From contig BLSF01000053.1 in NCBI GenBank assembly GCA_012862575.1, positions 186,001 to 250,000 of the forward strand: 64,000 bases of DNA, read 5' to 3'. Positions 19,801 through 64,000 of this stretch are shown here, in pieces; position 1 is the stretch's first letter, and every line of letters begins with the position of its first letter. Position numbers and translations under genes: made by a program. The DNA comes from Parietichytrium sp. I65-24A. Lineage: Eukaryota > Sar > Bigyra > Thraustochytrida > Thraustochytriidae. The notes beneath the pieces were generated by a model. That model did no database searches and was not told where the DNA came from. It saw only the letters and a program-made list of their open reading frames with translations.

Positions 19801-22800
19801 CTTGACCAGTTATCCAGCATCATGGATGTTGCCGAGAAGTTTGAAGGCAAAGTACCAGCAGTGTACTTGTAGTACAGATAAGTTTCGCCTCCAATGTCAT
19901 ACTTCCACATCTTGTTGTACTTGAACAGTTCGTCTATTGCTGACGATCCAAAGTTGAGGCGTACTTGGCAGTCGAATTGATGAAACACGGTTACCCAGTC
20001 TCCATTGGAGCAGCCTGTCAGGTTCTCCGTGTAGTCAAAGTCCTGTTCATATTCGCATAGTAGTGCATGAGTTACGCAAGCATTTTCAGAACTGCAAATC
20101 GCCTGAATTGCCACTCCAGCATTCTTGCCCCCGACATAGTCGCGCGGAATACACGTGAGTGTTTCCGCGGTGCTATTTGAAGCTCCATCAACGCTCGAGG
20201 TTTGAATGCTACAATCGTATCCAGAATAGTCGTCGTTGCAAAAGCAGACTCCAATATCAGGACAAAGCGTGGAATACTGTGCTAGCTCATCGCAACAGAC
20301 ACCATTCCCAGAGCAGGTCTTGGACGCAGGGCAGGTCTCCACGACTGGGTTTGAAGCTGAAGGGAAGTCCCTAAAGAAACTCTCGTCGTCCGCAAACTTG
20401 ATATTTTGCAATACCTCCTGAAACTCCAAGATCTTCTCGTTGATGAGGCTGGTGTACGGTTCTTCAATCGCCAGCTCGACAGTATATTCGCCCGTCATAG
20501 CAACATTACTTGGCCCAGAGATGTCTTCAGCAGTCCATCCGGACCAGCAACCCATGTTGAAGTAGATTAAGTTGTTGATGAGAACGTCAGAATCCACTGA
20601 AGGGTGAGGCGACGATACCCTTTGGTCAATTGCATACGCGTCTCCTTTACTTTGAACAGAGAGCTCGATCGTCACAGAGACAATATTTCCAGATATGCTA
20701 ACTTCGACTTGGCACGAGTCCGGATCTAGGGCGTCCATGCATCTTGCATACTGGAGTGATGACTTCGTTTCGCTTAGGTCCAGCGAGCATACCGTGCCAT
20801 TTGGCACTTCAAGATCAAAGGTCTCCGTCCAATTCACTACGAAGCCCGAGATCGAGGCGAAGTCCTCACTTCTCGCAACGTCCTCACTCGTGCCCTTAAC
20901 AATCGCCTCGATCTTCTCGTAAACGGTTGAGATCCATGTGAAATCCTCGCTTTCGAAGCTGAATTGTACAAAGGGTTCTTTCATCTCGATCGGAGCTGTA
21001 GTCGGATAACTTGTTGGGCTCTTTGTTGGAGCGAGCGTTGGTGAGTCAGTTGGAGAACTCGTCGGAGCACTCGTTGGTGCAGCAGACGGTGATTTCGATG
21101 GAGAGTTTGTGGGAGCGACTGTAGGCGAAAGAGATGGTGCTGCTGTCGGCGCGTCTGTTGGTGCAGAGCTTGGAGCAGAGCTTGGCGCGAAAGTTGGTGT
21201 ATCAGTTGGAGCTGCAGTCGGTTCAGCTGTTGGCGCATCAGTCGGAGCTGCAGTCGGAGCGGCAGTCGGTGCAGCAGTCGGAGCATCAGTCGGAGCTGCT
21301 GTTGGTGCAGCAGTCGGTGCAGCAGTTGGTGTGTCAGTCGGAGCATCAGTCGGAGCTGCTGTTGGTGCAGCAGTCGGTGCAGCAGTTGGTGTGTCAGTTG
21401 GAGCATCAGTCGGAGCTGCTGTTGGTGCAGCAGTCGGTGCAGCAGTTGGTGTGTCAGTTGGAGCATCAGTCGGAGCTGCTGTTGGTGCAGCAGTCGGTGC
21501 AGCAGTCGGTGCAGCAGTCGGTGCAGCAGTCGGTTGAGCTGTTGGTGTGTCCGTCGGAGCTGCTGTAGGAGCGGCTGTCGGTACATCAGATGGAGCATGA
21601 GTCGGAGCTGCTGTTGGTGCAGCAGTCGGTGCAGCAGTCGGTTGAGCTGTTGGTGTGTCCGTCGGAGCTGCTGTAGGAGCGGCTGTCGGTGTATCAGATG
21701 GAGCATCAGTCGGAGCTGCTGTTGGTGCAGCAGTCGGTGCAGCAGTCGGAGCAGCAGTCGGTGCAGCAGTCGGTTGAGCTGTTGGTGTGTCCGTCGGAGC
21801 TGCTGTAGGAGCGGCTGTCGGTGCATCAGATGGAGCATCAGTCGGAGCTGCTGTTGGTGCAGCAGTTGGTGTGTCAGTCGGTTGAGCTGTTGGTGTACCA
21901 GTCGGAGCAGTAGTCGGGGCAAATGTCGGTGCATTGGTCGGAGCTGCAGTTGGTTCAGCTGTTGTCGGTGTTCCAGTTGGAGCTGCAGTCGGAGCAAACG
22001 TGGGCGATTGGGAGGGGCTGTTTGATGGCGACACGGTAGGCACGAATCCAGGAGAATGAGTTGGACTTTGAGTTACTAGATTCTCAAAGTCGTGAGACAG
22101 CATATGACCCACAGCCGGGTTGAACCAAGGGTCCGATATGTACACTGGTGCGTTGTCTGCGCCTAAAAAGGTGCCTGATAGTTCTTTTGTGCATAAGACG
22201 TTGCCATCAGCCTTCACTGTGAGAGTTCCAACATAAAGAACGATCTCCACTTCAATATCGGTATCCAAAGCCAACTCTTCAGAGGCATCGCAACCCTCGT
22301 TGTAGCTTGCCGATGTGGAAACACGAACGTAGAGGGTTGTGGTCCATGGCCGGAACCAGATCGCTGGTAAGCGCTCGTTTTTTTGAGAGCCAACGTGGAT
22401 TATGTTTGCCCATGCCCCGAGCGCTTTCTCGACTCTTATCACAAAGCTTAACTTCCAATTCTCCGTCAATGTGATATAATTAACGAGAGTATTTTTCGTT
22501 AGACGCGTGCTGGAAGAGACTGGAGCGCGTGTTGCGCGATCTGAAATGTTGTCGAGATAAAAGTCCTCAATGGCAGCATAAGCGGGCCTGTACCACGGAT
22601 CAGAAATGTAGATTGGACGTTCTCCCAGCACAGCAAAGGGAGATGTTAGCACTTTGTGACAAACGAGCTCCCCATCATAAAAGACTTTCAGATGCAGCCC
22701 AAATAGCTCAAATCGAACGTCGTACGTCTGGCCAAGCTCCAACGTTACTGACGGGTCACACCCATCGTTGTAGTACTCCTCCGTGGAAACTCGAAAGTGC

Positions 22801-25800
22801 AGACGAGCTTTATTTGGATACACAAAAACCGCAGGAGAGCGCTCTCTGTTCGTACTACCTACATGAATGGCACTTGCCCAAGTGGAGACGATCTTGGATA
22901 TCGTTATTTTGAATGTCATCTCCCAGTCCAGCCCCAGCGTTATTACTCCGGCTTCTGCTCCTCGCTCCAGCACAGCCGGTGCAGCCACGGGTTGTGGCGT
23001 TGGACGGTCTTCGATGTTCGTAAAATTAAAGTCCAAAACATCAGCAAACGCTGGGGAGTACCAAGGGTCGGATATGTAGACCTTTCGTTGAGTCAACGGA
23101 GCTGAATGACTGGGCAAATACCCGCTTTCGCACACCACTTCGTCATTTATGTAGACCGTTAAGGTGTCCACAAAGTACTCTATCACAACCTGGTACCAGA
23201 CGCCAAGCTCCAGTTCAGTAGACGGATCACACCCATCGTTCCAATAAGTCTTTGAGCCGAATCGGATGTGAAGCCGCGTTGATCCTGGGCGGAACCAAAT
23301 TGCCGGGTACCGCTCCCGATTACTATTCCCAACATGCACAAGGTTTGACCAACTGGACATTGTATCGTACACGGCGACTGCGAACGACATATTCCAATTA
23401 ATGCCCACGTCTACGGTATCCACTAATGTGCCCTTTGTGAGTTGCGGGGTTGGTCCAGTCGGAGGCGGTGTGGGCCGGTTTGTGATGTTTTGAAATGCCA
23501 AGTCCTCCACTAGTCCGATTGCCGGAGTGTAGTACGGGTCCGACATGTAGATTGGTCTGTTCCCGTAGACCAAAAACTGGCCGCTTAGACTGCTCGAACA
23601 CACCTCCACCCCATCCATAAAAACTGTGAGGGTCCGAAGAAACACTTCAACGGTGATTTCATGGGTGTGACCGAGAACTAGCTCTTGGAGGGGATCGCAG
23701 CCATCATTCCAATTGGAAACTGTGCTCACGCGGATATGAAGCCGTGCCGAATTTGGGCGCACAAAGATAGCTGGAACCCTTTCCTTGTTGGCACTTCCGA
23801 CTCTTAGAACGCTCTGCCACGAGCTCTGTTTGGCAAACAGCGTAAAATTGAACGAAACTTCCCAGTTCTCTTCTAGCCGAACGTAGCCCTCGATGTGACC
23901 CTTCTCTAACAGGTTGTCAGGGTATGCCCGAGTGGGAGACATTGTTGGCGCCATTGTTATCTCGTTCGCACAGGACTTGAGGTTTTGGGTCGCGCTACAC
24001 TGCACGTTGGAAGCTTTTTTGGAGCACACTCGTGTGATTGGGTTGATACAGAGGGTGTCATCCGTGCTGATACCCTCTTCCGCAAAAGTTGCACATTCGC
24101 AAGCCTCCGGAGTGGCTGGACCCATGTATAACCCGGTAAGCTTGTTCGTCTCGCCCGGGGTGGCAAAGTATACATTTCCCTGACTAGTTAGGTAGTCGTC
24201 GTGCGAAGCGCTATACTCCAGACGGTAGAGGTCTCCATCGCTGATCACATCCATGTCGGGAATCGTGAAACTAAAGTATCCGTTTTCGTCAGAGTAGGCT
24301 ACTAAAGAAGTATCGGATGCAGATGTGCCAGTGCAAGAGTTCCAAGCGATTCCAGGAGTCTCCTCCCATTCGCAACAAGACGAAGCAACGCACGCGCTGT
24401 ACAAATTGTCGAGTGACTCGCAAGTCTGATCCTTGCAGTTTCCATTCGTCTTTACTGCAGAGCAGTTCCCGCCTCTGTAGCCCCACAATCGCACAACTGC
24501 ATTTTCTACCGGCGTGGACTTGGTGCTGTAAACGTAGCCTTGTATGTTCGTTGACTGAAAGCGTGAGAGAGCCACGACTTCCGAGGTTGAGTACAAAAAC
24601 AAAGTCACAGCTGAAGCATCGCGACGTACCACAGGGATGCCCGAAGAGCTGTCCACCGAGCACGATTGTGGATAAACCACGATGTCTGGCTTTCCTGATT
24701 TGTAGGATCGCTTAACAATGACCTTTGTATCGCTAGGCTGAGTTACTTTTGCGTCGTTTTCGGCCACAACGACAAATCGGTAATCATCGGAAACCGTGAA
24801 GGTCGAGACAATCGTGAACAGATATGGCCAGACATCTGCTGCGTACTCTAGCGCTCGACTGGCGCAGGAAAGAGCCCGCAGCCCTCTGTGACGTGTCAGA
24901 GAGGCAGGAAGCTGCAGAAGTCGTCTCTCAGTTGCGTTCTCGTTCACAATTTCATCATCGGATGATGCTTGCGAGATTTGGCCGACTGCGGAAACAGAGT
25001 CAGATTCCGAGAAGAGATCGTTCAGAGCGACTCCATCACCTGTCATCACGCTAGCATTCGTGGATTGTGTGGTGATAGGAACTATTTGCTGGCAGGTATT
25101 CGCCTCTGGCAAGAAAAAATTGCTCTCTGCCAACTCGAGATCGATGATGGTCTGCAGAGCCTCCGTAAGATAATCCTGGGTCCAACAAAAGAGCGAATCT
25201 GCGCAATCATCGTTGGCAGTGCATTTCTTTTCAAAGCCACACTTCTTCACACAATGGCTTCCGCCACAGTCTACGTCAGTCTCGGAACCATCCTGGATAT
25301 TGTTGTCGCACGACGCACAAGTCCCATTGTAGCAGATGTTGGAGTCACAATCCCAGTCGCTCTCACAAGTCTTGCCATCTGCACAAGTTCCTCCTATGGT
25401 GGGGCAAAGAGATCCACCGCAATCTATGTCTGTTTCGTGCAGGCTAAGAACGCCGTCTGAGCATTCTGCTGAGATTTGCGTCACGTCCACAGAGGAGTCT
25501 GTCAGTGAGTTCTCTGCGCTACTGGTTGTCCCGTAAATTGACTCACAGATCCCCCATCCACACACTCCCGATGAGCAATTTGAGCTGCAGCGTTCTGTGA
25601 CACAGTCAAATTTGAACTGACACGTTTGCCCTACCTTGCAGCGTTTCGAGCACACGACGCCTCCGCAGTCAACATCGGTCTCGTCGCCGTCTTGAATTCC
25701 GTTAGAACACGAAACACAGACTCCGAGATCTTCGCTACAAATACCACTAGAACACTGAGACGGAGATGTACAGGTTCTGTTGTCCTTGCACAGACCTTCA

Positions 25801-27902
25801 GAGTCAGAGTTTTCGGCGTGTAGGGGAGCTATAGCGGCAAAGTCCGAAGGTGAGTTCTCCGGATAGGTTCGATAGTAGATTTGGCAATATGGCGATCCAC
25901 AGTCCACGTCCCCTTCCTCGCTATTCTGTGTGTTATCATGACAACCACCGCAATATCCGCCATCACAAAGTCCGGATGCGCAGTCGTCGTTGACAAGGCA
26001 ATGCACTCCAAAGTCGCACAAGAAGGACTTGTCCGGGTCCGGAAGACTTTCGAGAGAATCCATAAGCTTGCGACAGTCTGCACCACCACAATCCGTGCCA
26101 GTCTCAAGACCGTCGCGCCGACCGTTTGTGCACTTCTCGTAGGTCGTAGGGCTTCTGCACAACAACGTGGTTGAATTGCAGTAGCCAGAGGAGCAATCAG
26201 TGTCACGTAGGCATCCTTTCCCGACCGCGCATCGCGCTTCACATCCGCCATACAGGGAATCGCCTCCACAGTCCACAGCAGTTTCGTTCCCGTCTTTAGC
26301 TCCATTCAAGCAAGAGTGCAAGGAGACATTCAGCGTTGTTTTAATGGCAACTTCACTGGTGGCGTCCACATCGATTGCAGAGACGACTTGTGACTTCTCC
26401 ACCCGGAGCGAAGAGGAATTGAAGTATACTGATAGAGCAATCACGGCTCCGATGATCATGAACGCAAGAGACATGACAAGAACTTGTGCATGGCGCCGAC
26501 TCACATATTTGACCTTGTCCGATTGGGGCGGAGAGTTAAAAAGGAGCCAAAGGTCAGCTCGGATGGAGATGAGGATGCAGATGACCAGCATAGAGAGACC
26601 GTAGAGCAGGATAGACGTGTGCTGATGAAGAAGATTCACTAGGACCTGACAACAAGATTCATTCAAACAGCCCTCCAACGACGACCCCGTGGTGGAGTAT
26701 TCCCAAGCAAAGGCAACCGAGTCTGCGTTTGGACACCTAGCAGACTCGCCAACGCCAGATGAAGTGATCACATATGTGCCAGAGCTCTCGTCGTAGCTCT
26801 CCACTTGAGCCCCCATCGCTGCGCCCCCGTATTTGGTGCATCCGACCGTGGCATTCCACCAGTCTTTGTTCATGATTTGCATGATTGATCGACAATCATT
26901 GGTAATCAGGGAGTCTAAATTTACAATCGCAACGGCGATGATTACCCCGATGATACAGACAAATAGCACTACCATGCTGGCCATGTGTAGCTTGATGAGC
27001 GAGTTGTTCTCTATGAGGGCTGCTCCAAAGCCCATAATGCTCAAGATGATGAGAAGGATGCACAATGAGATAAAAAAGTGGAAGGTCGTGAGCAATGTCG
27101 TATCAAAAGACTGCTCCGCCAAGAATTCTCCATATTCTAGCAACGAAAAAGCGACAAAGAGGCCCAAGACGCCAACGCCGACAAGGATGGTTGAGAAGGT
27201 TTCCAGGAAACTCTGTGAGATTTCGTAAGCCGTAACCACAAGAATAGTGGACCGCAAGGTCGCTAGAGCGAGAAGCGCCAGGAGCAAGCACGTTACAGCG
27301 CTTGCTTTCGCGTATGTTGCAGCGCCGCCATACGCGCCGTCGTTGAGGAACGAGTCGCTGTCTGTAAGAATAGCCAGAGAGATCGGAAAGAGCACTAGTG
27401 AAACTGCGCAAGAGATGTGAAAATAGGCTTGAAGCAGGTTTTGGCCAGGGGTACCTAGGCCATCATCGTCCATAGCCACATCCTCCTTTACTCGCTGAGC
27501 ACCGTACGCCCCAAGAGTGGCCGAGAACAGAGCAAAGGAACCCGCTGCAATCATTATTTTGCCGACCCCTCCAGAGCTCCCGTCCTCCTGCGCGGCGTTC
27601 CGCTGCAAGGTGCCAAAAGCAATCAGAACAATAGAAAGAAAGCACATGCCGAAAAGCATAATACTCAGGTGTGTATGCGTCCACTTCTCCATGACATGTT
27701 TCCGCGCCTCTATCATCGGCGTCGAGCCGTGCATCATGCTCCCTCTAAATTTCGCTTGCGTGGCTGACACTCTCCTCCTCGGCGCGGCCTGTTTCACATT
27801 CTGCAAGAAATCAGCGATCTTATCTTCCTCCAAATGCGGCTCTGGGTTCACTTTACGCCCCTGCAAAACGCCGCTCTCCTGCTCCTGATCATCGCCGCTC
27901 AT
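16842..27902 (-). CDS. Giant multi-pass mosaic surface protein
   Basis: One uninterrupted frame of 3,686 residues. The frame opens at a TTG nine codons upstream; the first ATG (27902) was used. Order: cytosolic basic N-terminus; nine predicted membrane segments (about 79-99, 115-135, 159-179, 200-224, 236-255, 272-296, 308-329, 429-449, 472-494) with a tetraspanin-like Cys-containing loop (ESCCQ) before segment 8; six Cys-rich repeats of the form CxNGxxDGxETDVDCGGxxC (about 527-914); a carboxypeptidase-regulatory-like fold (about 1116); four lectin-like repeats (about 1334-1946); a Pro-Thr stalk (about 1947-2304); an EGF-like segment (about 2524-2564); a second regulatory-like fold (about 2804); two hevein-like Cys patterns (about 3046-3160); a PAN/apple-like region (about 3324-3396); and a beta-trefoil-like tail (about 3538-3680). 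Nine spans with a cytosolic N-terminus put the 3,100-residue ectodomain outside the cell. Adhesion or sugar binding is inferred. Module names other than the Cys repeats and stalk are by eye. Confidence 0.92.
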   Translation of the reverse strand: MSGDDQEQESGVLQGRKVNPEPHLEEDKIADFLQNVKQAAPRRRVSATQAKFRGSMMHGSTPMIEARKHVMEKWTHTHLSIMLFGMCFLSIVLIAFGTLQRNAAQEDGSSGGVGKIMIAAGSFALFSATLGAYGAQRVKEDVAMDDDGLGTPGQNLLQAYFHISCAVSLVLFPISLAILTDSDSFLNDGAYGGAATYAKASAVTCLLLALLALATLRSTILVVTAYEISQSFLETFSTILVGVGVLGLFVAFSLLEYGEFLAEQSFDTTLLTTFHFFISLCILLIILSIMGFGAALIENNSLIKLHMASMVVLFVCIIGVIIAVAIVNLDSLITNDCRSIMQIMNKDWWNATVGCTKYGGAAMGAQVESYDESSGTYVITSSGVGESARCPNADSVAFAWEYSTTGSSLEGCLNESCCQVLVNLLHQHTSILLYGLSMLVICILISIRADLWLLFNSPPQSDKVKYVSRRHAQVLVMSLAFMIIGAVIALSVYFNSSSLRVEKSQVVSAIDVDATSEVAIKTTLNVSLHSCLNGAKDGNETAVDCGGDSLYGGCEARCAVGKGCLRDTDCSSGYCNSTTLLCRSPTTYEKCTNGRRDGLETGTDCGGADCRKLMDSLESLPDPDKSFLCDFGVHCLVNDDCASGLCDGGYCGGCHDNTQNSEEGDVDCGSPYCQIYYRTYPENSPSDFAAIAPLHAENSDSEGLCKDNRTCTSPSQCSSGICSEDLGVCVSCSNGIQDGDETDVDCGGVVCSKRCKVGQTCQFKFDCVTERCSSNCSSGVCGWGICESIYGTTSSAENSLTDSSVDVTQISAECSDGVLSLHETDIDCGGSLCPTIGGTCADGKTCESDWDCDSNICYNGTCASCDNNIQDGSETDVDCGGSHCVKKCGFEKKCTANDDCADSLFCWTQDYLTEALQTIIDLELAESNFFLPEANTCQQIVPITTQSTNASVMTGDGVALNDLFSESDSVSAVGQISQASSDDEIVNENATERRLLQLPASLTRHRGLRALSCASRALEYAADVWPYLFTIVSTFTVSDDYRFVVVAENDAKVTQPSDTKVIVKRSYKSGKPDIVVYPQSCSVDSSSGIPVVRRDASAVTLFLYSTSEVVALSRFQSTNIQGYVYSTKSTPVENAVVRLWGYRGGNCSAVKTNGNCKDQTCESLDNLYSACVASSCCEWEETPGIAWNSCTGTSASDTSLVAYSDENGYFSFTIPDMDVISDGDLYRLEYSASHDDYLTSQGNVYFATPGETNKLTGLYMGPATPEACECATFAEEGISTDDTLCINPITRVCSKKASNVQCSATQNLKSCANEITMAPTMSPTRAYPDNLLEKGHIEGYVRLEENWEVSFNFTLFAKQSSWQSVLRVGSANKERVPAIFVRPNSARLHIRVSTVSNWNDGCDPLQELVLGHTHEITVEVFLRTLTVFMDGVEVCSSSLSGQFLVYGNRPIYMSDPYYTPAIGLVEDLAFQNITNRPTPPPTGPTPQLTKGTLVDTVDVGINWNMSFAVAVYDTMSSWSNLVHVGNSNRERYPAIWFRPGSTRLHIRFGSKTYWNDGCDPSTELELGVWYQVVIEYFVDTLTVYINDEVVCESGYLPSHSAPLTQRKVYISDPWYSPAFADVLDFNFTNIEDRPTPQPVAAPAVLERGAEAGVITLGLDWEMTFKITISKIVSTWASAIHVGSTNRERSPAVFVYPNKARLHFRVSTEEYYNDGCDPSVTLELGQTYDVRFELFGLHLKVFYDGELVCHKVLTSPFAVLGERPIYISDPWYRPAYAAIEDFYLDNISDRATRAPVSSSTRLTKNTLVNYITLTENWKLSFVIRVEKALGAWANIIHVGSQKNERLPAIWFRPWTTTLYVRVSTSASYNEGCDASEELALDTDIEVEIVLYVGTLTVKADGNVLCTKELSGTFLGADNAPVYISDPWFNPAVGHMLSHDFENLVTQSPTHSPGFVPTVSPSNSPSQSPTFAPTAAPTGTPTTAEPTAAPTNAPTFAPTTAPTGTPTAQPTDTPTAAPTAAPTDAPSDAPTAAPTAAPTDTPTAQPTAAPTAAPTAAPTAAPTAAPTDAPSDTPTAAPTAAPTDTPTAQPTAAPTAAPTAAPTHAPSDVPTAAPTAAPTDTPTAQPTAAPTAAPTAAPTAAPTAAPTDAPTDTPTAAPTAAPTAAPTDAPTDTPTAAPTAAPTAAPTDAPTDTPTAAPTAAPTAAPTDAPTAAPTAAPTAAPTDAPTAEPTAAPTDTPTFAPSSAPSSAPTDAPTAAPSLSPTVAPTNSPSKSPSAAPTSAPTSSPTDSPTLAPTKSPTSYPTTAPIEMKEPFVQFSFESEDFTWISTVYEKIEAIVKGTSEDVARSEDFASISGFVVNWTETFDLEVPNGTVCSLDLSETKSSLQYARCMDALDPDSCQVEVSISGNIVSVTIELSVQSKGDAYAIDQRVSSPHPSVDSDVLINNLIYFNMGCWSGWTAEDISGPSNVAMTGEYTVELAIEEPYTSLINEKILEFQEVLQNIKFADDESFFRDFPSASNPVVETCPASKTCSGNGVCCDELAQYSTLCPDIGVCFCNDDYSGYDCSIQTSSVDGASNSTAETLTCIPRDYVGGKNAGVAIQAICSSENACVTHALLCEYEQDFDYTENLTGCSNGDWVTVFHQFDCQVRLNFGSSAIDELFKYNKMWKYDIGGETYLYYKYTAGTLPSNFSATSMMLDNWSSLDGEHLINEHFKLYGNVSDLVNDTNPWLWSNYDDQVGFPRDSRPFVTGDSTEIAKYYHKWAKSYCALYNRKVSPLREFSFDLCIPDSVYVGTTKSTSHRALSTYSLNGTIIDSVTGAGVQAKVSLYRGVVPAYQSRTVFATADAILTFTSSSLGSDSESVSTECASSFYSSVETSDSAVTIQKSAFQFDELSPGSYTVVVEYSDEVASAQLESGASLVSDIEFSTRVMYVNIEEEDKEVQMQVTGELAEGTIIVAMETLAEDLDIVVSFLSSLDGDRCTVSAKLLSDGACSCSGSQVLRMDTSADPLTGMYTQVIYLKEIRETSYVFYVARNRPVASSDYKKHRDDGRCGPLYPLDDGTPAQCPPITVAWEDGTSALRPCCHITSGYCGLSEFYCNTRYSIDYRRFLNTDWTQEFRSDLYCNRPDLLSANGLLATCPEEKPCCGPNLRCGNETYHCNSDKSINYKPFYEAIAENETGTETLLPMEESETVIRVYTDAGLVATYELPDSSETMNYFDGHEFVSGEASDSSTYFRSFCINALGSTPQLYDFPAPRYFAYRGQMLGMSTDCPASSDCSYIKVSGLRAKFVRNDEVTVPDLNGAYIRRYVDSSSVEYKTYPGHVVGTGSTCQVRLENPSTGLMSWYMYMEDPSTAENECMALCTASETCEAVFYVEYLNSDQEYVYRCSFHRNIQNCGGITAVSVSATYSRTVYKKQDFRGMESTIWYTKLDTMFQGYGEQIHLYLDDSTLTWYIDTDTDPSNGFYAKAYGSAQSSLPPGSGWRYLLTLAGSETLEHTGAVTALEFLDDCQVGGNYPTLNSTASEMGCTCNAGGATNCRAVTCTKFYMRLTSTNLCLEANAVRGMLISNVCDEDTEAQYFIYNAGNRHLEVQLSSEGTSYVVAADSEQNLILIETTSSSDSVSSAAQFEFTSSGNICVLSTSSDSISSYEEQLQAENSTYCVFLAASTNDAALLVPTERQTEWSVFSVI
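20990..22060 (-). repeat. coding Pro-Thr stalk with nested tandem repeats
   Basis: The short unit is 12 bp (Ala-Pro-Thr-x on the coding strand). Higher-order copies are also visible: three exact-length 60-bp units (21301-21480) differing at one or two bases, and three longer units starting near 21532, 21640 and 21772 (108 and 132 bp apart). The product is a mucin-like rod with many potential O-glycosylation sites. Confidence 0.95.
22065..23902 (-). repeat. four tandem lectin-like modules (coding)
   Basis: Four copies of about 150 residues each in the giant protein. Each keeps W-x-S/N/A near a VGS/VGN turn, ERxPAI/V-F/W, LHIRVS or a variant, YNDGCDP or a variant, LTVxxDG-x-VC and YISDPWYxPA, followed by a short Pro/Thr linker. 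I see no database-familiar name; a concanavalin A/LamG-like jelly roll is my guess. Confidence 0.85.
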
Positions 27903-29647
27903 CTCGTCCTCCGAACCCGAGCGAACCAATCACGTTTTCCTTCGCCCTTACGACAACCCAGCTCCCACTTTCCAACTTTTTAAACTTTCAACACCAACCC
28001 CAAACGAACCACGTCTCTCTCTTTATCTCTCTATCTCTCTATCTCTTTATCTCTGTATCTCTGTATTTCTGTCTCTCTCCTCACAAGAAGTTGGAATCAG
28101 AGCACAGCAGAACTAGCAGAACTAGCAGAACAGCAGGAAGGCTCTCTCACAACACTCGGCGACCGCGGCCTTTTACCCTTCCTTCTCCTCCCGCGAGGAC
28201 ACACCGTGTCTTGTGTGTATTTTGCCGACCGTTCCTCTCGGACCCGCCTTGTTCTTCCTTCCCTCCCTCCCTCCCTCCGCCCGATAGTTTAGCCAGCCCA
28301 AGCGCGAAACGTTGGCGCGCTTAGCGCAATCGCTAACGGTGGTTAGGACTCTGGACAGTCTGAACGGAAAAAGGAGTTGTGACAGTTGGGAATGGGTTCC
28401 CCGGGGGTGGGATCAGCGATTGCAAGTGATTGGGCGTATGATTGGGATAAGTGGGATGAGTTCCGCTGTCGGTTCCGTGCGGGCGAACCGGACGGTTGGT
28501 AATAGTCCTACGCCACGTACCAGTACGAAATCACCCGGGTGGGTTCTGAATGACTACTGTTTACGATAGTAGAGGGCACGATATCTAGTAGAACGGCACT
28601 ATGAGGTAGTAGGACACCCTGTTCAGACGTTTTGGGATGATGACTATGGTTTCCTATGCAACTGTTAAGAAAGAGACGCTACGTACGGAAGTGCTATGGT
28701 ATCGTCTATTGGCACTCTTACTGGGAGCGGGCGGTATAGCACTCTATCCAGATATAAAGGACATTTATTAGTCTTATTTTATGTCTTGAGATAACACAAA
28801 ACTAAAGTCTTTCGTTCATTGTTTTGTTTTGATTGATTGAGATTGAGATTGATTTGTTGATTTGATTGAACCTATTGAACCACTGAAAAACAAAAACAAG
28901 AAAGAAAACAAAGAACAAAGAATAAAGAAAAGAAACAGAAAAGACTGTGAAAACGAAAAGGAACAAACAAAAGAGAGAGCGAAAAAGATGTCTGCATACA
29001 TATACGCTTCACAGTCAATGATCATCTCTAACACTGCCTTATGCCGGTGAGTCCTCGAGTACTCACACTCGATCCTCTGTGAGTACGTACCCTACTCACT
29101 CTCAGTGCTCGCACACCACACACTATCAGAACTACGCACGTACGTGCACGTACGCGTGTGTACGTACGTATACGCGATCAATATTTAACTCCTACGGAGC
29201 TCGAAACAAGGAAGGCGACAGACTACTATTTTGAGAAAGGGGCTCTCCCTCGTTCAGAGTGACTGAGCGGATTGGAAGAGGGGCGCAGCGAAGGGGTGTC
29301 CTCGCTCAAATACCGAACTTTCGTGTCCGCGGAGCTCCAATTCGGGGACGTTGTACGGTACGTACATGCAGTCTCCAGCGAGGACAGCGGAAAAGGGATT
29401 CGTTCAAGTTGGGAGACAAGGGCAGTTATTGTGAATTGGCATTGGCATTGGCATTGGCATTGACATTGGCTTTGGCGTTGGCGTTGGCATTGGAATTGAC
29501 ATTGGCATTGACATTGACATTGGCTTTGGCTTTGGCTTTGGCGTTGGCGTTGGCACTGGGATCACTCAGGTTTCGCGAGGTTCGGTGTCGTGTGTGGCGA
29601 CTGCGAGTTGGTTTCTGACACAGCTTCTCTGGTTGCAGGCGGCGGAA
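27903..29647. other. divergent intergenic region, promoter side of two genes
   Basis: 1.7 kb. It has a TATCTCTC array at about 28018-28080, a short GGAA/CCCT run near 28255, an AAAGAAAAC-rich stretch (28885-28990), a perfect 16-bp palindrome (29139-29154), GTAC-rich DNA, and a hexamer array (29437-29560). No exon is convincing. Frames that translate the hexamer array give only Leu-Ala repeats. Confidence 0.5.
29437..29560 (+). repeat. (ATTGGC/ATTGAC)n hexamer array
   Basis: About 20 hexamers of the family ATTGGC, ATTGAC, TTTGGC and GTTGGC, ending some 90 bp before the PrpF start codon. The same hexamer family is seen at 33652-33682 and, as a coding repeat, at 48078-48130. Confidence 0.9.
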
Positions 29648-43910: not shown

Positions 43911-45941
43911 ATGGCCCAGCAAGCGAGCGCCGTTTTGATCGGCATGCGTGGCGCCGGAAAGTCCACTCTTGGGGCCGCTGGCGCCGAGGCTCTTGGCCTT
44001 CCGCACGTGGACATGGACGTGGAACTCGAGGCGCGGCAGCAAAAGTCCTGCGGAGACATCGTGGCCCAGGTGGGATGGGACGGTTTCCGGAAATTGGAGC
44101 TGGAAGCGCTGGAGCAAGTTCTCAGTGAAAGGCCTTTCGGGACTGTGATCTCTTGCGGCGGCGGAATCGTGGAGACCGAGCCTGCCAGAATGGCATTGCA
44201 ACGCTACGACGGCCCGGTGGTCCACGTGGACAGGCAGGCCGAAGATGTGGTGGCGTACTTGGAGGGGCGCGAAGCGGTGCAGGCAGCTTCTGGCAATGCG
44301 GACAAAGACACAGCGGATGCCAAGGATTCTGAGGCTGACAGTGATAATGCAGTGACCTCATCAGAGTCGCTTGCCAGAAGGCCAAAGTACGGCGAATCCG
44401 TGCTTGACGTGTGCAAGCGCCGGCAGCCGTTGTACGAGGCTTGCCGAACCCACGTGTTCACAATGTCAAAGGGCGAGAGCGACTGGTCACGCATCACAAC
44501 CGAGTTTCGCGAGTTCTTCCTGTCCCTCTATTGCCAGCCTACGCCAGACGTGGTTGCGCCTGGTGCTTGCTTTTCCTCCTGCCGAGCCTCAGAGCAGCTA
44601 GCGCTTGGCGACGAAAGCCCGGACGCGCTTCTGGTATCTGAGTGCTCGACAAGCTTGGAAATTGCTGCATTGCGCCGGCACACCAGGTGCCCCTTAATTT
44701 TGGATGCGCGCGCGAAACCTTCCGAGATGGTAAAGCTCGCGCTTGAGGCCTCGCTCCCTTATGTGGTCGTGCCCGTTTCGGAGGCCGCTCTGCTCGAGAC
44801 CCTCTCAGTAAGGTGGAGAGGCACGACGCGATTCATCGCAGCAGTCTCGAGCGAGTTCGCTTCTCACGACGAATCATGGCTTGACAAAGTCAATTGCGGC
44901 AGATTTCACGCAGTGCTCGCCCAGGATGTCGAGGTTCTTAATAAGCTTGTACAGGCTGACCTTGCACTTCCGATCATTGCTTGCTACGCAGAGTCAGAGA
45001 GTATGCAGACTTTGGCGGAGGTTTGGAGCGAGCGCGGGCCGGTCGTGGTTTCCCACGGTTTAGACGCTGCTAGTCAGCTACGAAGGTACTGTGCAGAGAA
45101 AGAGGAATTGCGCCTGATTGATCATTACTGCCTCTTTGGACATCCGATCCAGTTGTCGCCGTCTCCAGCGATGCACAACGCTGGGTTCAAGGCGCTGTCA
45201 CTGACTAAGCGCTACACTCTCTGCGACACCTCAGATATCTCTCGAATTCAACAGATCCTCCGCACGAAACGCTTTCGCGGAGCATCGGTCACCATTCCAC
45301 ACAAGGAGGCAGTGCAGCCAATGCTCGGTTCTTTATCAGATGCGGCCAAAGCGATTGGCGCTGTCAACACCATCATCAAGTCGGATGGCGGAGAACTGCT
45401 CGGCGATAACACCGACTGGTTTGGAATTTACAACTTGCTGAATGGCCCCCTCAAGGCGAGACAGACGTCCGGTTCTGACATTGCTTTAGTTATTGGTGCC
45501 GGCGGAACCGCACTCGCAGCTAGTTACTGCGTCCAGCAACTCGGACTGCAATTGGTCGTCTACAACCGAACGCTCGAGAAAGCCCAAAAGGTGGCCGACA
45601 AGTTTGGAGGCAAGGCGATCAGCGACCTGTCTGGCTTGAGCAACCTGGCCGCAGTGATCGGCACGATTCCAGCTAGTTCCAAATTCAAATTTCCGGACGA
45701 AGAGGTCTTGCGCAAGTATACTCCAGTGGTCTTTGATGCCGCTTATCGGCCCAGAGTAACAGAGCTGCTGAAACAGGCTAAGGAGTGTGGCTGCCAGACC
45801 TTTGAAGGCATTGATATGCTTGTCGAGCAAGGTCTCCGCCAGATGGAATTGTGGTCCGGAAAAGATGCTCCTCGGGAGGAGATGAATGCGGCTGCGAGAA
45901 AGTTTTATGATGACACTGACCCTGCGAAAAATGCCACTTAA
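43911..45941 (+). CDS. Shikimate kinase / dehydroquinase-like / shikimate dehydrogenase fusion
   Basis: 676 residues, intronless. Residues 1-185 are a shikimate kinase domain: P-loop GMRGAGKST, substrate aspartate in HVDMDVE, FRKLE, and CGGGIV. Residues about 215-395 align by order and spacing with the type I 3-dehydroquinase domain of fungal AROM, but the positions of the catalytic His (AVSSEF where AROM has ASWHD) and the Schiff-base Lys (FHAVLAQ where AROM has DIVKLVG) are not conserved. Residues about 400-676 are shikimate dehydrogenase: GHPIQLSPSPAMHN, catalytic Lys in VTIPHKEAV, Asp in GDNTDWFG, and the NADP loop IGAGGTA. The domain order matches the last three domains of AROM, and also the fungal QUTR/qa-1S repressor. 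Kinase and dehydrogenase activity look intact. No synthase or EPSP-synthase domains are joined to it here. Confidence 0.93.
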   Translation: MAQQASAVLIGMRGAGKSTLGAAGAEALGLPHVDMDVELEARQQKSCGDIVAQVGWDGFRKLELEALEQVLSERPFGTVISCGGGIVETEPARMALQRYDGPVVHVDRQAEDVVAYLEGREAVQAASGNADKDTADAKDSEADSDNAVTSSESLARRPKYGESVLDVCKRRQPLYEACRTHVFTMSKGESDWSRITTEFREFFLSLYCQPTPDVVAPGACFSSCRASEQLALGDESPDALLVSECSTSLEIAALRRHTRCPLILDARAKPSEMVKLALEASLPYVVVPVSEAALLETLSVRWRGTTRFIAAVSSEFASHDESWLDKVNCGRFHAVLAQDVEVLNKLVQADLALPIIACYAESESMQTLAEVWSERGPVVVSHGLDAASQLRRYCAEKEELRLIDHYCLFGHPIQLSPSPAMHNAGFKALSLTKRYTLCDTSDISRIQQILRTKRFRGASVTIPHKEAVQPMLGSLSDAAKAIGAVNTIIKSDGGELLGDNTDWFGIYNLLNGPLKARQTSGSDIALVIGAGGTALAASYCVQQLGLQLVVYNRTLEKAQKVADKFGGKAISDLSGLSNLAAVIGTIPASSKFKFPDEEVLRKYTPVVFDAAYRPRVTELLKQAKECGCQTFEGIDMLVEQGLRQMELWSGKDAPREEMNAAARKFYDDTDPAKNAT

Positions 45942-57775: not shown

Positions 57776-59278
57776 ATGAAAAATGCCCCCGGACTCGGGA
57801 ACGTAGCGCAGCACACAGGTCATGTTGGATCGCCCACGACGGTCGATGGCGTCCAAGATGCCTTTGAGAAGGTGTCTCTTAAAAAGAGAGTACGGAAACG
57901 AGTGTCGTTCGTGCTCCCTGTTGAGAAGAAGCGCGCGAGAACCATTTCCTGGGGAGAAGATGAGGAGGAAGCAAAACCGGACATGCCCGTCAGTGCCACT
58001 AGTGTCTTGCCAACGGACACCGCGGAGCATGCTGTCGATGCGAGCGCGGGGCTTTGCTTAAAACAGGTCTGCGTTACATGCAACTCTTCTTTGGGTAGCT
58101 GCTCCTGTAATTGTAACATATCCAAGCCAATGGCAATCAACGAGTCGCGTTCAGGATCGAACAGGCCACCTTCCGGGCTTTCTGCGCAATTGCGACCTTC
58201 ATCGAGTTCCTCCTCCCAATGTAGTGGCATCAGTCGCGACAGCAGCCATGATGATGACGAGGAACGAGATCAGGTCGGGTCTTTAGTCTGCTTTGTATCA
58301 GCGCCAAAGGCTGTCAGCTTCAGTCTCGACGAGTCTGTGTTGTGCGTCAGCGAGCGCATGAAGGTCGCTTTCGGCTCTACAGAAAGCAATTCGAGCGAGT
58401 CCCCAGTCCATGCGAGGTGCGGCGGGCTCGGACTCACCCCACTTATGAAGGCCGCCAGGGACGGCGACCTTTCCAAGGCCAAGAAAATCCTAAAGTGTGG
58501 TGCAGACCCCGGCATCAACGACAAGAGAGGCTACGACGCCCTCATGTACGCCGTGCGGGACGGCTATGTCGATATGACGAGGCTGCTCCTAGCCTCCATT
58601 CGGCAGCATGTTATGCGCGAGGGACGCAAGGGATACAGGTTTCGAAACAAGCACCGACTAACTCATATGCTCTACGCGGCATTGAACGGTAACCACGAAT
58701 GTGTCAGGGCCCTCGCAGAATTCGGTAGCAAGATTGACTTGTGTGATATCTCCGGCGTGACTCCTCTAATGGCTGCCGCACACAACAATCACCTAGAGAG
58801 CGTCCGGACGCTCGTTGAGCTAGGCGCAAACCTTGAGCTGCAGGATAGGACGGGCTGCACGGCTTTGATGTGGGCAATTCGAGGCGGTAGCGTTCCTGCT
58901 GCCAAGATGCTCTTACAATATGGTGCTGACCCGAACGCAAAAGACAAAACTGGTCGATCTCCACTTCTGATTGCAGTCTTGCAAAAAGACTCGCCGATGG
59001 GCGAAGTTCTGCTCGATCATGGCGCCACAGTGTGCGACAATGTCCGTCTTGCGGTCTTGCGCTCCCACATCGAAAAGGAGCGGTCAGCCGACTCGAAACA
59101 CTTGGACGAAGTTGGGCCGCCTGGGGATGCTCCGCATGCCGAGACTGCCATCGACGGAGGCAATCTTCTGCTTTTGCAAGAGGAGAAGTCTTCGTCGAGC
59201 GGGCGCTCCGACTCTTCAGAGTTCGAATCATCCTCGTCAAGTTCCCACGCCGCCACTCTGCACTCGCAAGTGGTTTGA
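57776..59278 (+). CDS. Ankyrin-repeat protein
   Basis: 500 residues, no introns. The N-terminal 220 residues are disordered, with a basic stretch (KKRVRKRVSFVLPVEKKRAR, about residues 38-57) that could be a nuclear-localisation or RVxF-type phosphatase-docking motif (RVSFV); this is inference. About six ankyrin repeats cover residues 220-425, for example GLTPLMKAARDGDLSKAKKI, GVTPLMAAAHNNHLESVRTL and GCTALMWAIRGGSVPAAKML; the third repeat (THMLYAALNGNHECVRALAE) is degenerate. A Ser-rich tail (SSSGRSDSSEFESSSSSS) ends the protein. Ankyrin arrays bind protein partners; no enzyme domain is visible. The RVSFV plus ankyrin layout recalls myosin-phosphatase-targeting subunits (there RVxF precedes the repeats), but the remaining hallmarks were not checked. 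Confidence 0.9.
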   Translation: MKNAPGLGNVAQHTGHVGSPTTVDGVQDAFEKVSLKKRVRKRVSFVLPVEKKRARTISWGEDEEEAKPDMPVSATSVLPTDTAEHAVDASAGLCLKQVCVTCNSSLGSCSCNCNISKPMAINESRSGSNRPPSGLSAQLRPSSSSSSQCSGISRDSSHDDDEERDQVGSLVCFVSAPKAVSFSLDESVLCVSERMKVAFGSTESNSSESPVHARCGGLGLTPLMKAARDGDLSKAKKILKCGADPGINDKRGYDALMYAVRDGYVDMTRLLLASIRQHVMREGRKGYRFRNKHRLTHMLYAALNGNHECVRALAEFGSKIDLCDISGVTPLMAAAHNNHLESVRTLVELGANLELQDRTGCTALMWAIRGGSVPAAKMLLQYGADPNAKDKTGRSPLLIAVLQKDSPMGEVLLDHGATVCDNVRLAVLRSHIEKERSADSKHLDEVGPPGDAPHAETAIDGGNLLLLQEEKSSSSGRSDSSEFESSSSSSHAATLHSQVV

Positions 59279-59782: not shown

Positions 59783-60060
59783 TCTTCAACACAATAAAAT
59801 TGGAGATGGAGGAGCATCAGCAATTTGTCGCGAGGTGGAGACGAACTCTACGTTGACGTCCTTGAAGTGCGTGTGCGACTTTGGCTCTGGTTTCGCGAAA
59901 GAGTCGAGTCCTTTGATTGAACTTGTCTGTGCTTTGCGGCTGACAATTTTTTATTGTCGTCTCTGCTGAAAATAGCATTGGCGAAAATGGTGTATTAGCT
60001 ATCTGTCTTGGATCCTGGTCCACACTCCACTCGCACACCTTTGACGGTAATGGAATAATT
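59783..60060 (+). pseudogene. orphan LRR unit and a decayed second unit
   Basis: An 84-nt LRR exon-like unit (59783-59866) has an AG acceptor before it and reads LQHNKIGDGGASAI and ETNSTLTSL. It is followed by an intron-like spacer with the same CTTTGCGGCTGAC motif as in the main array. A second unit follows GAAAATAG at about 59975, reads NSIGENGVLAI, and then loses the repeat pattern. No start codon or first exon lies upstream, so these look like stranded copies from the neighbouring gene's repeat family. Confidence 0.7.
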
Positions 60061-60320: not shown

Positions 60321-63300
60321 ATGGGGCGTTTCGAGGACGTTGAATTGGATGAAATGCCGCCATTGAGTTGGATGTCGGGGACGTTGGAAGATGCGCTTGA
60401 GGCGATGGGGCGAGAAAGTGCCGTGATGTGAGTGGTTGTGACTTTGTTGCCTGACGGCCAAGGGTGTCAGGGTGAGTTGCCTTACTTGGTCTTTTCTTCC
60501 GCGCACAGGGTTGTTCGTCTTTTCCAACATTCGCTGGGGCCGAGCGCAGCGATGAAGCTTGCGTTGGCAATCCATGGCAACCAAATGCTCCAATACTTAT
60601 CGTGAGTCACGAAGTTGTTTTGAGAATTCTGATGTGAAGGTTAGAGCTTCAGGACATAGTTCGATACCTTTACCGACTTTGGTTATGCTCTGCGATTGAC
60701 AATATTTTTTGTCGTTTCTGGAAATAGTCTTGACGGCCATGACATTGGAGATGAAGGGGTATCGGCGATTGGTCGCGCGTTGGAGAAGAACACTGCGCTG
60801 GTTGCATTGGAGTACGTGTGAAGTTGGTCCCGGTATCGCAAAGATACTCGAGCACCTTTATCGAAACTGTTCGTGCTTTGCGGCTGACGACTTTCTTGTC
60901 GTTTCTGGAAATAGTCTTGTCAGCAATGGCATTGGCGCGGAAGGAGCATCAGCGATCGGTCGCGTGTTGGAGAAAAACACTCTGCTGAAGTCATTGAAGT
61001 ACGTGAGACGTTGGCCCCGGTATCGCGAAATACTCGAGTTCTTTATCGAACCTGTTCGTAATTTGCGACTAATAATTCTCTTGTCATTTCTGAAATAGTC
61101 TTGAAGGCAATGGCATTGGCCATGAAGGAGCATCAGCGATCGCTTGCGCGTTGGAGAAAAACACGGTGCTGACGTTCTTGAGGTACGCGTAACCTTGACC
61201 CCGATTCTGTGGTGTGCTCGAGCACCTCAAACGAACCTGTTCGTGCTTTGCGGCTGACATCTTTCTTGGCATTTCTGGAAATAGTCTTGGTGGTAATGGC
61301 ATTGGTGCCGAAGGAGCATCAGCGATCTCTCACGCGTTGGAGAAGAACTCTGCGCTGACTTCATTGAAGCACGTGTGACGTTGGCCCCGGTATCGCACAA
61401 AACTTGAGTACCTTTACTGTACCTGTTTGTGCTTTGCGGCTGACTTTTTTTTAATCGTTTCTGGGAATAGTCTTGTCGACAATCAAATTGGAGATGAAGG
61501 AGCATCTGCGATCGGTCTCGCATTGAAGAAAAACACAGCTCTGACGTCCTTGGAGTACGTTTGACATCGGCCCCCGTTTCGAGAAATACCCTAGTACTGA
61601 ACTTGTTTGTGCTTTGCGACGGACGATGTTGTTGTCATTTCTGGAAATAGTCTTTCCAGGAGTAGCATCGGCGACGAGGGAGTTTCAGCGATGGGTGTCG
61701 CATTGGAGAAGAACACTGCGCTGGCGTCCTTACGGTACGTGTGACTTTGGCCCTAATTTCGGGACTTACTCAGGCAAGACTACTGAACTCGTTTGTGCTT
61801 TGTCGTTCCTTAAACAGTCTTCGGGAAAATTATATTCGCGGTGAAGGAGCAACAGCGATCGGGCGCTTGTTGGCGAAGAACACTGCGCTGACTTCATTGA
61901 AGTACGTGTGACGTTGGCCTTGGTATCGCGAAATATCGAGTACATTTATCGAACATGCTCGTTCATTGCGGCTGACGGTTTCTTGCCATTTTGGGATATA
62001 GTCTTGTCATGAATTATATTGGCAATGAAGGAGCATCGGCGATCGTTCGCATGTTGGAGCAGAATACTGTGCTGACTTCATTGAAGTACGTGTGGCGTTG
62101 GCCCCCGTATCGCGAAATACTCGAGTACCTTTCTCAAACCCGTTTGTGCTTTTCGGCTAACAAATTTCTTGTTGTTTCTGGGAATAGTCTTTCCGACAAT
62201 CGCATTGGCGATGGAGGCGCGTCAGCGATCGGCCGCATGTTGGAGAAGAACACTATGCTGGTTTCATTGAAGTACGTGTGACGTTGGCCCTGGTAACGCG
62301 AATACTCGCGTACCTTTGTTGAACCTGTTCGTGCTTTGCGGCTGACGAATTTCTTGTCATTCCTGGAATTAGTCTTGACTCCAATAATATTGAAGATGAA
62401 GGAGGATCGGCGATCGGTCGCGCGTTGGAGAAGAATACTGCGCTAGCGTTCTTGAGGCACGTGTGACATTGGCCCCGGGTTCGTGATGTACTCGAGCCCT
62501 TTTACCCAACTTGTTTGTGCTTTGCGGCTGACGTTTTTTTGTCGTTTCCTGCACTAGTCTTAATCACAATGACATTGGAGGTAAAGGAGCATTAGCCATC
62601 AGTTGCGCGCTGAAGAAAAACACAGCGCTGACGTCCTTGAAGTATGTTTGAAATTCGCCCCCGTTTCAAGTTACCTTAGTGCTTGTGCTTTGCGGCTGAC
62701 GAATTTCTTGTCATTCCTGGAATTAGTCTTGACTCCAATAATATTGAAGATGAAGGAGGATCAGCGATTGGTCTCGCATTGGAGAAGAACAGCACGCTGG
62801 TGTCCTTGAGGTACGTTTGACTCTGGCCCTTCTTTCGTGAAGTACTCAAGTCTACTGAACTCGTTTGTGCTTTGCGGCTGACGACAATAATGTCGTTCCT
62901 GAAAAAAGTCTTCGGAGTGATTCCATTGGGAATGAAGGAGCATTAGCGATCGGTGTTGCGTTGGAGAAGAATATTGCGCTGACCTCTTTGGAGTAAGTGT
63001 GGCGTTGGACCCGATTTTGTGAATTTCTCGAGTTCCTTTACTGAACTAGTTTGTGCTTTTCCGGCTTACAATATATTTGTCATTCTGGAAATAGTCTTCG
63101 CTACAATTATAGTATCGGCGGCGAAGGAGCATCGGCGATCGGTATTGCGTTGGAGAAGAATACTGCGCTGACGTCCTTGAGGTAAGTGCAACGTTGGTCA
63201 CGGTCTCGTGAATCGCTCGAGTAGCCTTACTGAACGTGTTTGTGCTTTGCGGCTGACTTTTGCATGTATATGAATAGTCTCCCTCTGAATGACGTTAGCG

Positions 63301-63371
63301 ATGAATTTGAATCAAAGATGTATGCCGCTTTGGATAGGAACGCTGCGCTGGTGTCCTTGCAGTACGTATGA
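60321..63371 (+). CDS. Multi-exon LRR protein, one 28-residue LRR per exon
   Basis: Predicted exons: 60321-60427, 60509-60601, then fifteen LRR exons, 60728-60811, 60915-60998, 61099-61182, 61285-61368, 61471-61554, 61651-61734, 61818-61901, 62002-62085, 62188-62271, 62373-62456, 62558-62641, 62727-62810, 62909-62992, 63095-63181 and 63278-63361, ending at TGA 63369-63371. Fourteen LRR exons are exactly 84 nt and one is 87; all introns are phase 2, so any exon can be lost or gained in frame. The conceptual product is 490 residues. Each repeat follows L-x-x-N-x-I-G-x-E-G-A-S-A-I-G-x-x-L-E-K-N-T-x-L-x-S-L, the ribonuclease-inhibitor/NLRC3 type. The N-terminal 67 residues are acidic (MGRFEDVELDEMPPLSW) and have no known fold. 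No internal stops are seen. Decayed units follow, so the true 3' end could be further on. The role is unknown; a protein-binding solenoid is likely. Confidence 0.85.
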
Positions 63372-64000
63372 CGCTGGTCCATATTTCGTGAAAAACCTCA
63401 GTACCTTTACTGACTGACCTTGTTGTGCTTTGCGGCAAACAAAATTTACCCTTGTGTGGAAAAAAAATTATTTATTCCTGAAGAAGAAGACCGCTCTGTC
63501 CGCTTTAGAGCAGACGTGGCTATGGCCTCGCTTTCATGAAAAGCTCGCGTGCCTTCTAGATCCGACCTTGCTCCAGCTTTGCGGCTGTCGGTCTATTTTC
63601 GTTTCATGGGAATAATCTCGAGACAATTGGAGTGGACCGCGTCTCGTTGGAGAAAAACAATGCGCTGATCACTCTGAACTCGTGTGTGATCAGTTTCGGA
63701 AACATCAATCCGGGCGCTACTCAATGCGGGGAAGTCTTTCGCATCATTCAAATCACTGAACGTTTTGTTTCTTTATTCCTGACAATAATTCGTCTTGCGA
63801 TTGTTTTACAAGTACGGCGCCAGGCTCGCGCTTGCGCACAGACACTTCCATTAACGTGGCCCCAGTCTCTTCGAGTCTCATTCGTCTGGCACCGACTCTG
63901 GACTAGTCCGCTCATCAATACTCACCATGAATGCATCACATCAAGTAACTCTTTCCTTGCTCTCGCTGGAAAGGCACAAGAAATTTACACAAACAGAAAT
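63372..64000. other. decayed LRR units and window end
   Basis: 629 bp. A truncated unit at about 63480-63508 (KKKTALSAL) and another at about 63611-63679 (LETIGVDRVSLEKNNALITL) share the array's pattern but lack proper splice sites or a full repeat. The last 300 bp show nothing recognisable. The LRR family may continue beyond the window. Confidence 0.55.

Follow-up and report, generated by a model that had tools for sequence, protein, structure and literature searches.

A thraustochytrid gene with one leucine-rich repeat per phase-2 exon is one member of a genome-wide, probably diversifying family

A gene at positions 60321-63371 of a 64,000-nt stretch of DNA from Parietichytrium sp. I65-24A carries fifteen leucine-rich repeats (LRRs), each in an exon of its own. 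The whole stretch analysed, here called the window, corresponds to positions 186001-250000 of contig C53 in a genome assembly of 42.5 Mb and 172 contigs. The window gene is not a lone oddity; it is one member of a genome-wide family. It likely belongs, as an LRR-only or short-tailed member, to a large diversifying family of probable intracellular recognition proteins. The label "immune", when applied to this family, is an analogy.

Direct reading and a script parse both fitted a 17-exon model to 60321-63371, with two leader exons followed by fifteen single-LRR exons. The features of this model are as follows.

60321..60427, plus strand: leader exon 1 with the ATG; open frame, ends in phase 2, donor GTGAGT
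60509..60601, plus strand: leader exon 2, an N-terminal LRR-like cap; phase 2 at both ends
60728..63361, plus strand: array of 15 exons with one LRR each, every one in phase 2 and separated by introns of 83-103 nt
60728, 60915, 61099, 61285, 61471, 61651, 61818 and 62002, plus strand: starts of LRR exons 1-8
62188, 62373, 62558, 62727, 62909, 63095 and 63278, plus strand: starts of LRR exons 9-15
61369..61370, plus strand: GC donor (GC-AG intron), found by direct reading and script parse
62457..62458, plus strand: GC donor (GC-AG intron), found by direct reading and script parse
63369..63371, plus strand: in-frame stop (Q-Y-V-stop) reached by read-through of the last donor; end of the interval first proposed for the gene

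The LRR exons were 84 nt long in 14 of 15 cases and 87 nt in one (63095-63181), all fifteen were entered in phase 2, and the unit spacings were 187, 184, 186, 186, 180, 167, 184, 186, 185, 185, 169, 182, 186 and 183 bp. Re-reading and parsing thus both reproduced the original prediction of fifteen LRR exons of 84 or 87 nt, in phase 2 and regularly spaced. AG preceded every LRR exon, whereas GT followed 13 of the 15 and GC the other two; GC donors occurred in 5 of 301 mapped unit hits from the window and 20 stretches sampled across the genome. An alternative gene end is provided by a 151-aa open stretch from 63577, with an AG at 63576.

Tandem Repeats Finder independently reported a 186-bp array of 14.1 copies (score 1477). 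Mean pairwise identity was 71.4% among the 14 window introns and 70.6% among the 14 window exons of 84 nt, suggesting that the duplication unit takes in the intron. These data agree with the earlier proposals that the introns resemble each other as the exons do and that an exon plus its intron, about 185 bp, is the unit of duplication. Conservation across the introns covers the donor (GTACGTGTGAC) and the acceptor side; a CTTTGCGGCTGAC stretch in them may serve as branch site, and they would be spliced at the predicted borders.

The predicted window protein is 490 aa long with repeats of 28 residues. In a Pfam search the spliced protein matched LRR_6 with 251 bits against a cut-off of 23.4 (E 5.4e-78), and its repeats follow the 28-29-residue LxxLxLxx(N/C)xL pattern, so that by sequence it is a ribonuclease-inhibitor-type LRR protein. 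Pfam recognised no family besides LRR in the 490 aa, neither Roc-COR nor NACHT nor another end or signalling domain. The 67-aa leader has no hydrophobic stretch, as judged by eye, suggesting that the protein is soluble. We infer that the window protein is most likely a soluble LRR recognition protein that would bind a ligand, with relatives that would signal via TIR-ROCO or kinase ends. In this model, each 84-nt phase-2 exon would supply 28 residues, a single turn of a solenoid of the ribonuclease-inhibitor type, and neighbouring exons would meet inside the predicted beta-strand. With one turn per exon and the border so placed, units of about 185 bp could be gained, lost or partly swapped with frame and fold untouched.

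We also examined the flanks of the array, where further LRR units were found.

59783..59866, plus strand: orphan LRR unit, a profile hit with intact splice borders; no leader found
59931-60008: second, decayed LRR fragment upstream of the gene, 27 bits
63479..63678, plus strand: two degenerate units 3' of the array, 18 and 31 bits

Both upstream remnants sit between an ankyrin-repeat ORF (57776-59278) and the window gene. On the 3' side, a paralog comes after the degenerate units; it has leader exons of its own and another array, in which 7 units exceed 25 bits. No long 3' exon of the ROCO-locus or kinase-locus type was found between the window gene and the leader of this paralog. Directly past the paralog, one exon encodes a 1545-aa protein kinase that also has CAP_GLY and RCC1 repeats (L009:3775-8409); it looks like a separate gene. 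On the other side, several neighbours of the gene (window 1-59300) each consist of one long ORF without interruption, of up to 3695 aa, whereas the LRR gene has 16 introns in 3 kb; the genome may be intron-poor outside the LRR arrays. One ORF of this region (window 43911-45938) combines shikimate kinase and shikimate dehydrogenase domains in an AROM-like fusion, and a dehydroquinase domain gave no match in this ORF at E 0.001. Another, the 3695-aa minus-strand ORF at 16842-27929, contains a long degenerate in-frame repeat with periods of 60 to 132 bp (window 21192-21954).

Searching the array DNA against the genome gave at least 80 matches, its own included. A 29-base pattern taken from the conserved unit core, with up to 3 mismatches allowed, matched the genome 678 times, and the reversed-pattern control matched 0 times; the pattern recovers 265 of the 295 units that we read individually. 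Those units come from the window and 20 stretches of up to 10 kb; two further stretches of 4 kb were also read. With a profile of the 15 units in the window, 330 hits were obtained from the 20 stretches plus the window; 301 could be mapped at both exon ends and 29 could not, and removal of 6 duplicates from overlapping stretches left 295 units. Exon length was a multiple of three in 290 of 295 units, whereas intron length was so in 76 of 254, which is chance level (binomial p 0.26). Fully intact units, with AG, GT or GC, frame and no stop, made up 287 of the 295, and 276 were intact and exactly 84 nt; since the profile is biased towards well-preserved units, this share of intact ones is to be taken as a maximum. 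Two separate 90-unit samples gave omega values of 0.57 and 0.54 at the scaffold codons, suggesting that the arrays are under coding constraint. The leaders are related across loci as well. The first exons of L012, L013, L016, L020 (ROCO-TIR), L022, L026 and L027 (kinase) are relatives of exon 1 in the window gene; these loci lie on contigs C40, C41, C47, C12 (ROCO-TIR), C35 and C8 (two loci, one of them the kinase locus), and in all seven comparisons at most 1 of 500 shuffles scored as high. Leader residues 16-67, which come from both exons, were 48% identical to C41:44680-44838.

The degenerate units on both sides of the array raise the question of whether the array is decaying or silent, either as a pseudogene or as a reservoir of LRR units feeding expressed relatives by gene conversion. 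No C-terminal domain is recognised in the window gene, and some relatives are broken: L023 changes frame before its Roc exon, and L009 has a unit with a stop. LRR-only genes of brown algae have also been proposed as a reservoir (PMC11378527). We nevertheless regard decay or a reservoir role as unlikely, given that all 17 window exons are open with splice borders, that leader and start codon are present, and that scaffold omega is about 0.55, a figure that holds for the family as a whole rather than for the window gene alone.

The number of units varies between relatives. On contig C40, four tandem paralogs have 16, 13, 10 and 20 units (counted by eye; the 20 includes two off-length end units), in line with the expectation that such genes change length in whole repeats while keeping frame. 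In L017 and L018 we found internal multi-unit repeats whose peptides are the same or nearly so. The window array itself contains a duplicated tract.

62331..62408, plus strand: 78-bp tract, copy 1, running from an intron into an LRR exon; identical to 62685-62762
62685..62762, plus strand: 78-bp tract, copy 2; exact match to copy 1

This tract is common to the units at 62373 and 62727, which diverge beyond it, and the next-longest exact match in the window array between units not sharing one intron is 27 bp. Judged from this pattern of identity, the tract is a recombination or conversion patch with one end inside the exon, suggesting that the array does not change by whole-repeat steps alone.

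Exchange between arrays was analysed on a FastTree tree of 270 units, read irrespective of branch support. The nearest neighbour lay in the same array for 12 of 14 window-array units and in the same locus for 166 of all 270. Locus labels required 104 changes on the tree (minimum 20; mean 213.8 in 100 shuffles), and the three classes of ROCO, kinase and short-ended loci required 15 changes versus 30.1 for 200 shuffles. These counts suggest that units are mostly local and that some are spread across loci and classes, in a test that does not separate old shared ancestry from recent exchange. Some arrays lie near contig ends, and we therefore considered a subtelomeric position, which we rejected: no telomere-like repeat array was present at the 5 contig ends examined, and at least one array (L025) runs off its contig, so that assembly breaks explain a contig-end location equally well.

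Variation within the units is concentrated at a few codons. At codons 2, 3, 5 and 26, the entropy of bases 1 and 2 was 1.46-1.90 bits, which is near-maximal, whereas codon 8 was intermediate, the remaining codons reached at most 1.20 bits at these bases and the intron columns averaged 0.96 bits. The four codons were chosen for their variability and coincide with the exposed strand positions expected in LRRs; they correspond to x in LTxL-N/D-LxxNxI, the motif around the predicted beta-strand, and are predicted to lie on the concave face. The suggestion that the gene encodes a fast-changing protein fits this hypervariability. Across 60 independent pairs of units, selected because their introns and cores are close, differences were seen at 94 of 240 hypervariable and 98 of 1320 scaffold codons, and the ratio of nonsynonymous to synonymous changes was 87:7 at hypervariable codons but 50:48 at scaffold codons (Fisher p 5e-11). 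Codon models fitted to two non-overlapping samples of 90 out of 255 distinct exons gave an omega of 1.95 and 1.69 at the hypervariable codons and a rate 8.2 and 7.7 times that of the scaffold, under a tree assumption that gene conversion breaks. The likelihood-ratio figure was 11.2 for the first sample and at most about 8.1 for the second, an upper bound since kappa was not optimised under the null. Counting against an omega above 1, pairwise omega at the hypervariable codons, which are near saturation, was only 0.39-1.04, with 0.81 over 127 pairs and 0.75 within the window, and the 19 most recent pairs showed no excess of changes at these codons.

Because the variable codons have near-identical flanks, we considered hypermutation and rejected it. 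Among close pairs that differ at one or two codons, 15 of the 20 changes were single-base; four-fold third positions differed in 3 of 61 cases at the variable codons versus 9 of 110 at codons 1, 4, 6 and 7 and 23 of 632 in the core; and the newest pairs lacked an excess at variable codons. Taken together, these comparisons suggest that the exposed face was probably diversified focally by positive selection and not by a mutator. The concave face would bind variable partners, such as microbes, prey or self/non-self markers, and selection by the bound partners would drive the codon variation.

A housekeeping or structural role, for example in cilia, would leave the repetitive exons without adaptive meaning. 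Solved relatives do include the ciliary proteins DRC5, LRRC34 and radial spoke protein 15, along with NLRPs and ribonuclease inhibitor, and the window contains an ODAD1-like ORF, suggesting that the cell is probably ciliated. However, at least 678 unit matches spread over many contigs, repeat numbers that differ among paralogs, hypervariable exposed codons, and relatives with TIR-ROCO or kinase ends all argue against a structural role, which we consider very unlikely.

Those ends were identified in long frames behind the arrays. Pfam found Roc, COR-A and TIR_2 in an 853-aa frame behind the L020 array. L029 has a 698-aa frame with Roc, COR-A and TIR, and L023 has frames of 802 and 526 aa as two tandem copies, the former with Roc-COR-TIR and the latter with COR-A and TIR but without Roc. 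Only in L020 did we see a frame open from the phase-2 acceptor through the TIR domain; in L023 the frame shifts between the array tail and the Roc part. Behind the arrays of L019, L027 and L028 are frames of 976-1045 aa with a partial protein-kinase match in Pfam, and L024 has a kinase-type frame by similarity (66.5% over 460 aa to L028; partly masked). These kinase ends are described as coiled-coil kinase exons. At L019:1-2925, another kinase frame runs off the contig start; it is related to that behind the array. In the whole genome, COR-A occurred at 11 places and TIR_2 at 38. Searches for a chlorophyll-binding protein gene and for FabA found none here, with nine bacterial controls scoring in the FabA search; elicitin gave no match either, in a search in which no control scored. 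The protist is TIR-rich; several of the TIR_2 places are tandem pairs and most are not beside COR-A. Examples of TIR_2 places are listed here.

C30:359025-359882: TIR_2 place
C45:343206-344063: TIR_2 place
C139:36384-37241: TIR_2 place
C1:346723-347493: TIR_2 place

Among the titles and abstracts listed in literature searches, which included LRR-exon and TIR-ROCO architectures, we noticed no LRR-ROCO-TIR genes with one-LRR exons.

The symmetry of the exons bears on whether the gene is a combinatorial receptor, in which alternative splicing or programmed rearrangement would yield many isoforms within a cell or a population. Since every exon is phase 2, any subset of exons stays in frame, whereas an intron left in the transcript brings the frame to an immediate stop (for 194 of 276 units, at the fourth codon counting from the split codon). 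Alternative splicing of LRR exons has been reported for brown-algal ROCO genes (PMC11378527) and human NLRP3 (PMC6642158). Symmetric phase is a plain by-product of unit duplication too, however, and we rate a combinatorial receptor as quite unlikely. A bolder scheme can be drawn up, though we hold it to be distinctly improbable: behind a shared leader, interchangeable 84-nt LRR exons from a single pool would equip at least three kinds of receptor in this single-celled organism, namely TIR-ROCO GTPases, coiled-coil kinases and LRR-only proteins. The pool, swapped among them by recombination and diversified further by exon choice in splicing, would form an anticipatory recognition repertoire similar in logic to the variable lymphocyte receptors of lampreys.

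For the window gene, a member of a family of recognition proteins remains our preferred reading. The family adds a further lineage to those with arrays of one LRR per phase-2 exon, and it places the same kind of array and a related leader on different signalling ends, TIR-ROCO and kinase. Shared arrays on differing ends offer a testable case of how single-celled eukaryotes evolve recognition repertoires, and they raise the question of whether cassette exons are a common solution in ciliates, stramenopiles and animals. Long reads from different strains would allow both repeat number and ligand-face residues to be scored directly.

The design of one LRR per exon is already known from ciliates, brown algae and animals, and the window gene adds a variant. 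The earlier statement that it is unusual in a protist does not hold, since LRR exons of 90 bp are known from Tetrahymena (PMC6564038) and of 72 bp from brown-algal ROCO genes (PMC11378527). Nearly 50,000 LRR exons of exactly 90 bp, mostly in phase 2, have been described over 10 Tetrahymena species; in the group II/III genes, over 96-98% of the single-LRR exons are phase 2, the arrays spread by unequal crossing-over, and some are fused to a protein kinase (PMC6564038). Like these group II/III arrays, those described here consist of fixed-length, single-LRR, phase-2 exons spread across a protist genome, but the exons are 84/87 nt rather than 90 bp and the copy number in Tetrahymena is far higher (PMC6564038). 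In its main text, that paper uses none of the terms TIR, ROCO or positive selection (PMC6564038). Brown-algal LRR-ROCO genes have one LRR per 72-bp phase-2 exon, exon shuffling, diversifying selection at concave-face sites, a Roc-COR end and LRR-only relatives, and they are candidate immune receptors (PMC11378527). The window gene likewise has one LRR per phase-2 exon, but its exons are 84 nt and its LRR is of another type (PMC11378527). It also lacks the Roc-COR of the brown-algal genes, whereas its relatives L020, L023 and L029 have Roc-COR plus TIR; "TIR domain" occurs zero times in the main text of the brown-algal paper (PMC11378527).

Most NOD/NLRC genes have one 28-aa LRR per frame-preserving exon with the border fixed in the beta-strand (PMC6642158), and the window gene shares the single 28-aa LRR per frame-preserving exon and, by prediction, a border inside the beta-strand (PMC6642158). 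The LRR class is also shared, since Pfam and PDB matches place the window protein, with NOD/NLRC proteins and ribonuclease inhibitor, in the RI type. Unlike NOD/NLRC proteins, the window protein has no nucleotide-binding (NACHT) or effector domain recognised by Pfam, and its units are near-duplicates in a multi-locus array that is still moving. The variable lymphocyte receptors of jawless vertebrates consist of LRR modules in which a constant scaffold carries variable concave residues, and they are assembled somatically. Here the exons are germline exons of a single-celled organism in which no assembly step is known, but the predicted protein resembles those receptors in carrying variable concave residues on a fixed LRR scaffold.
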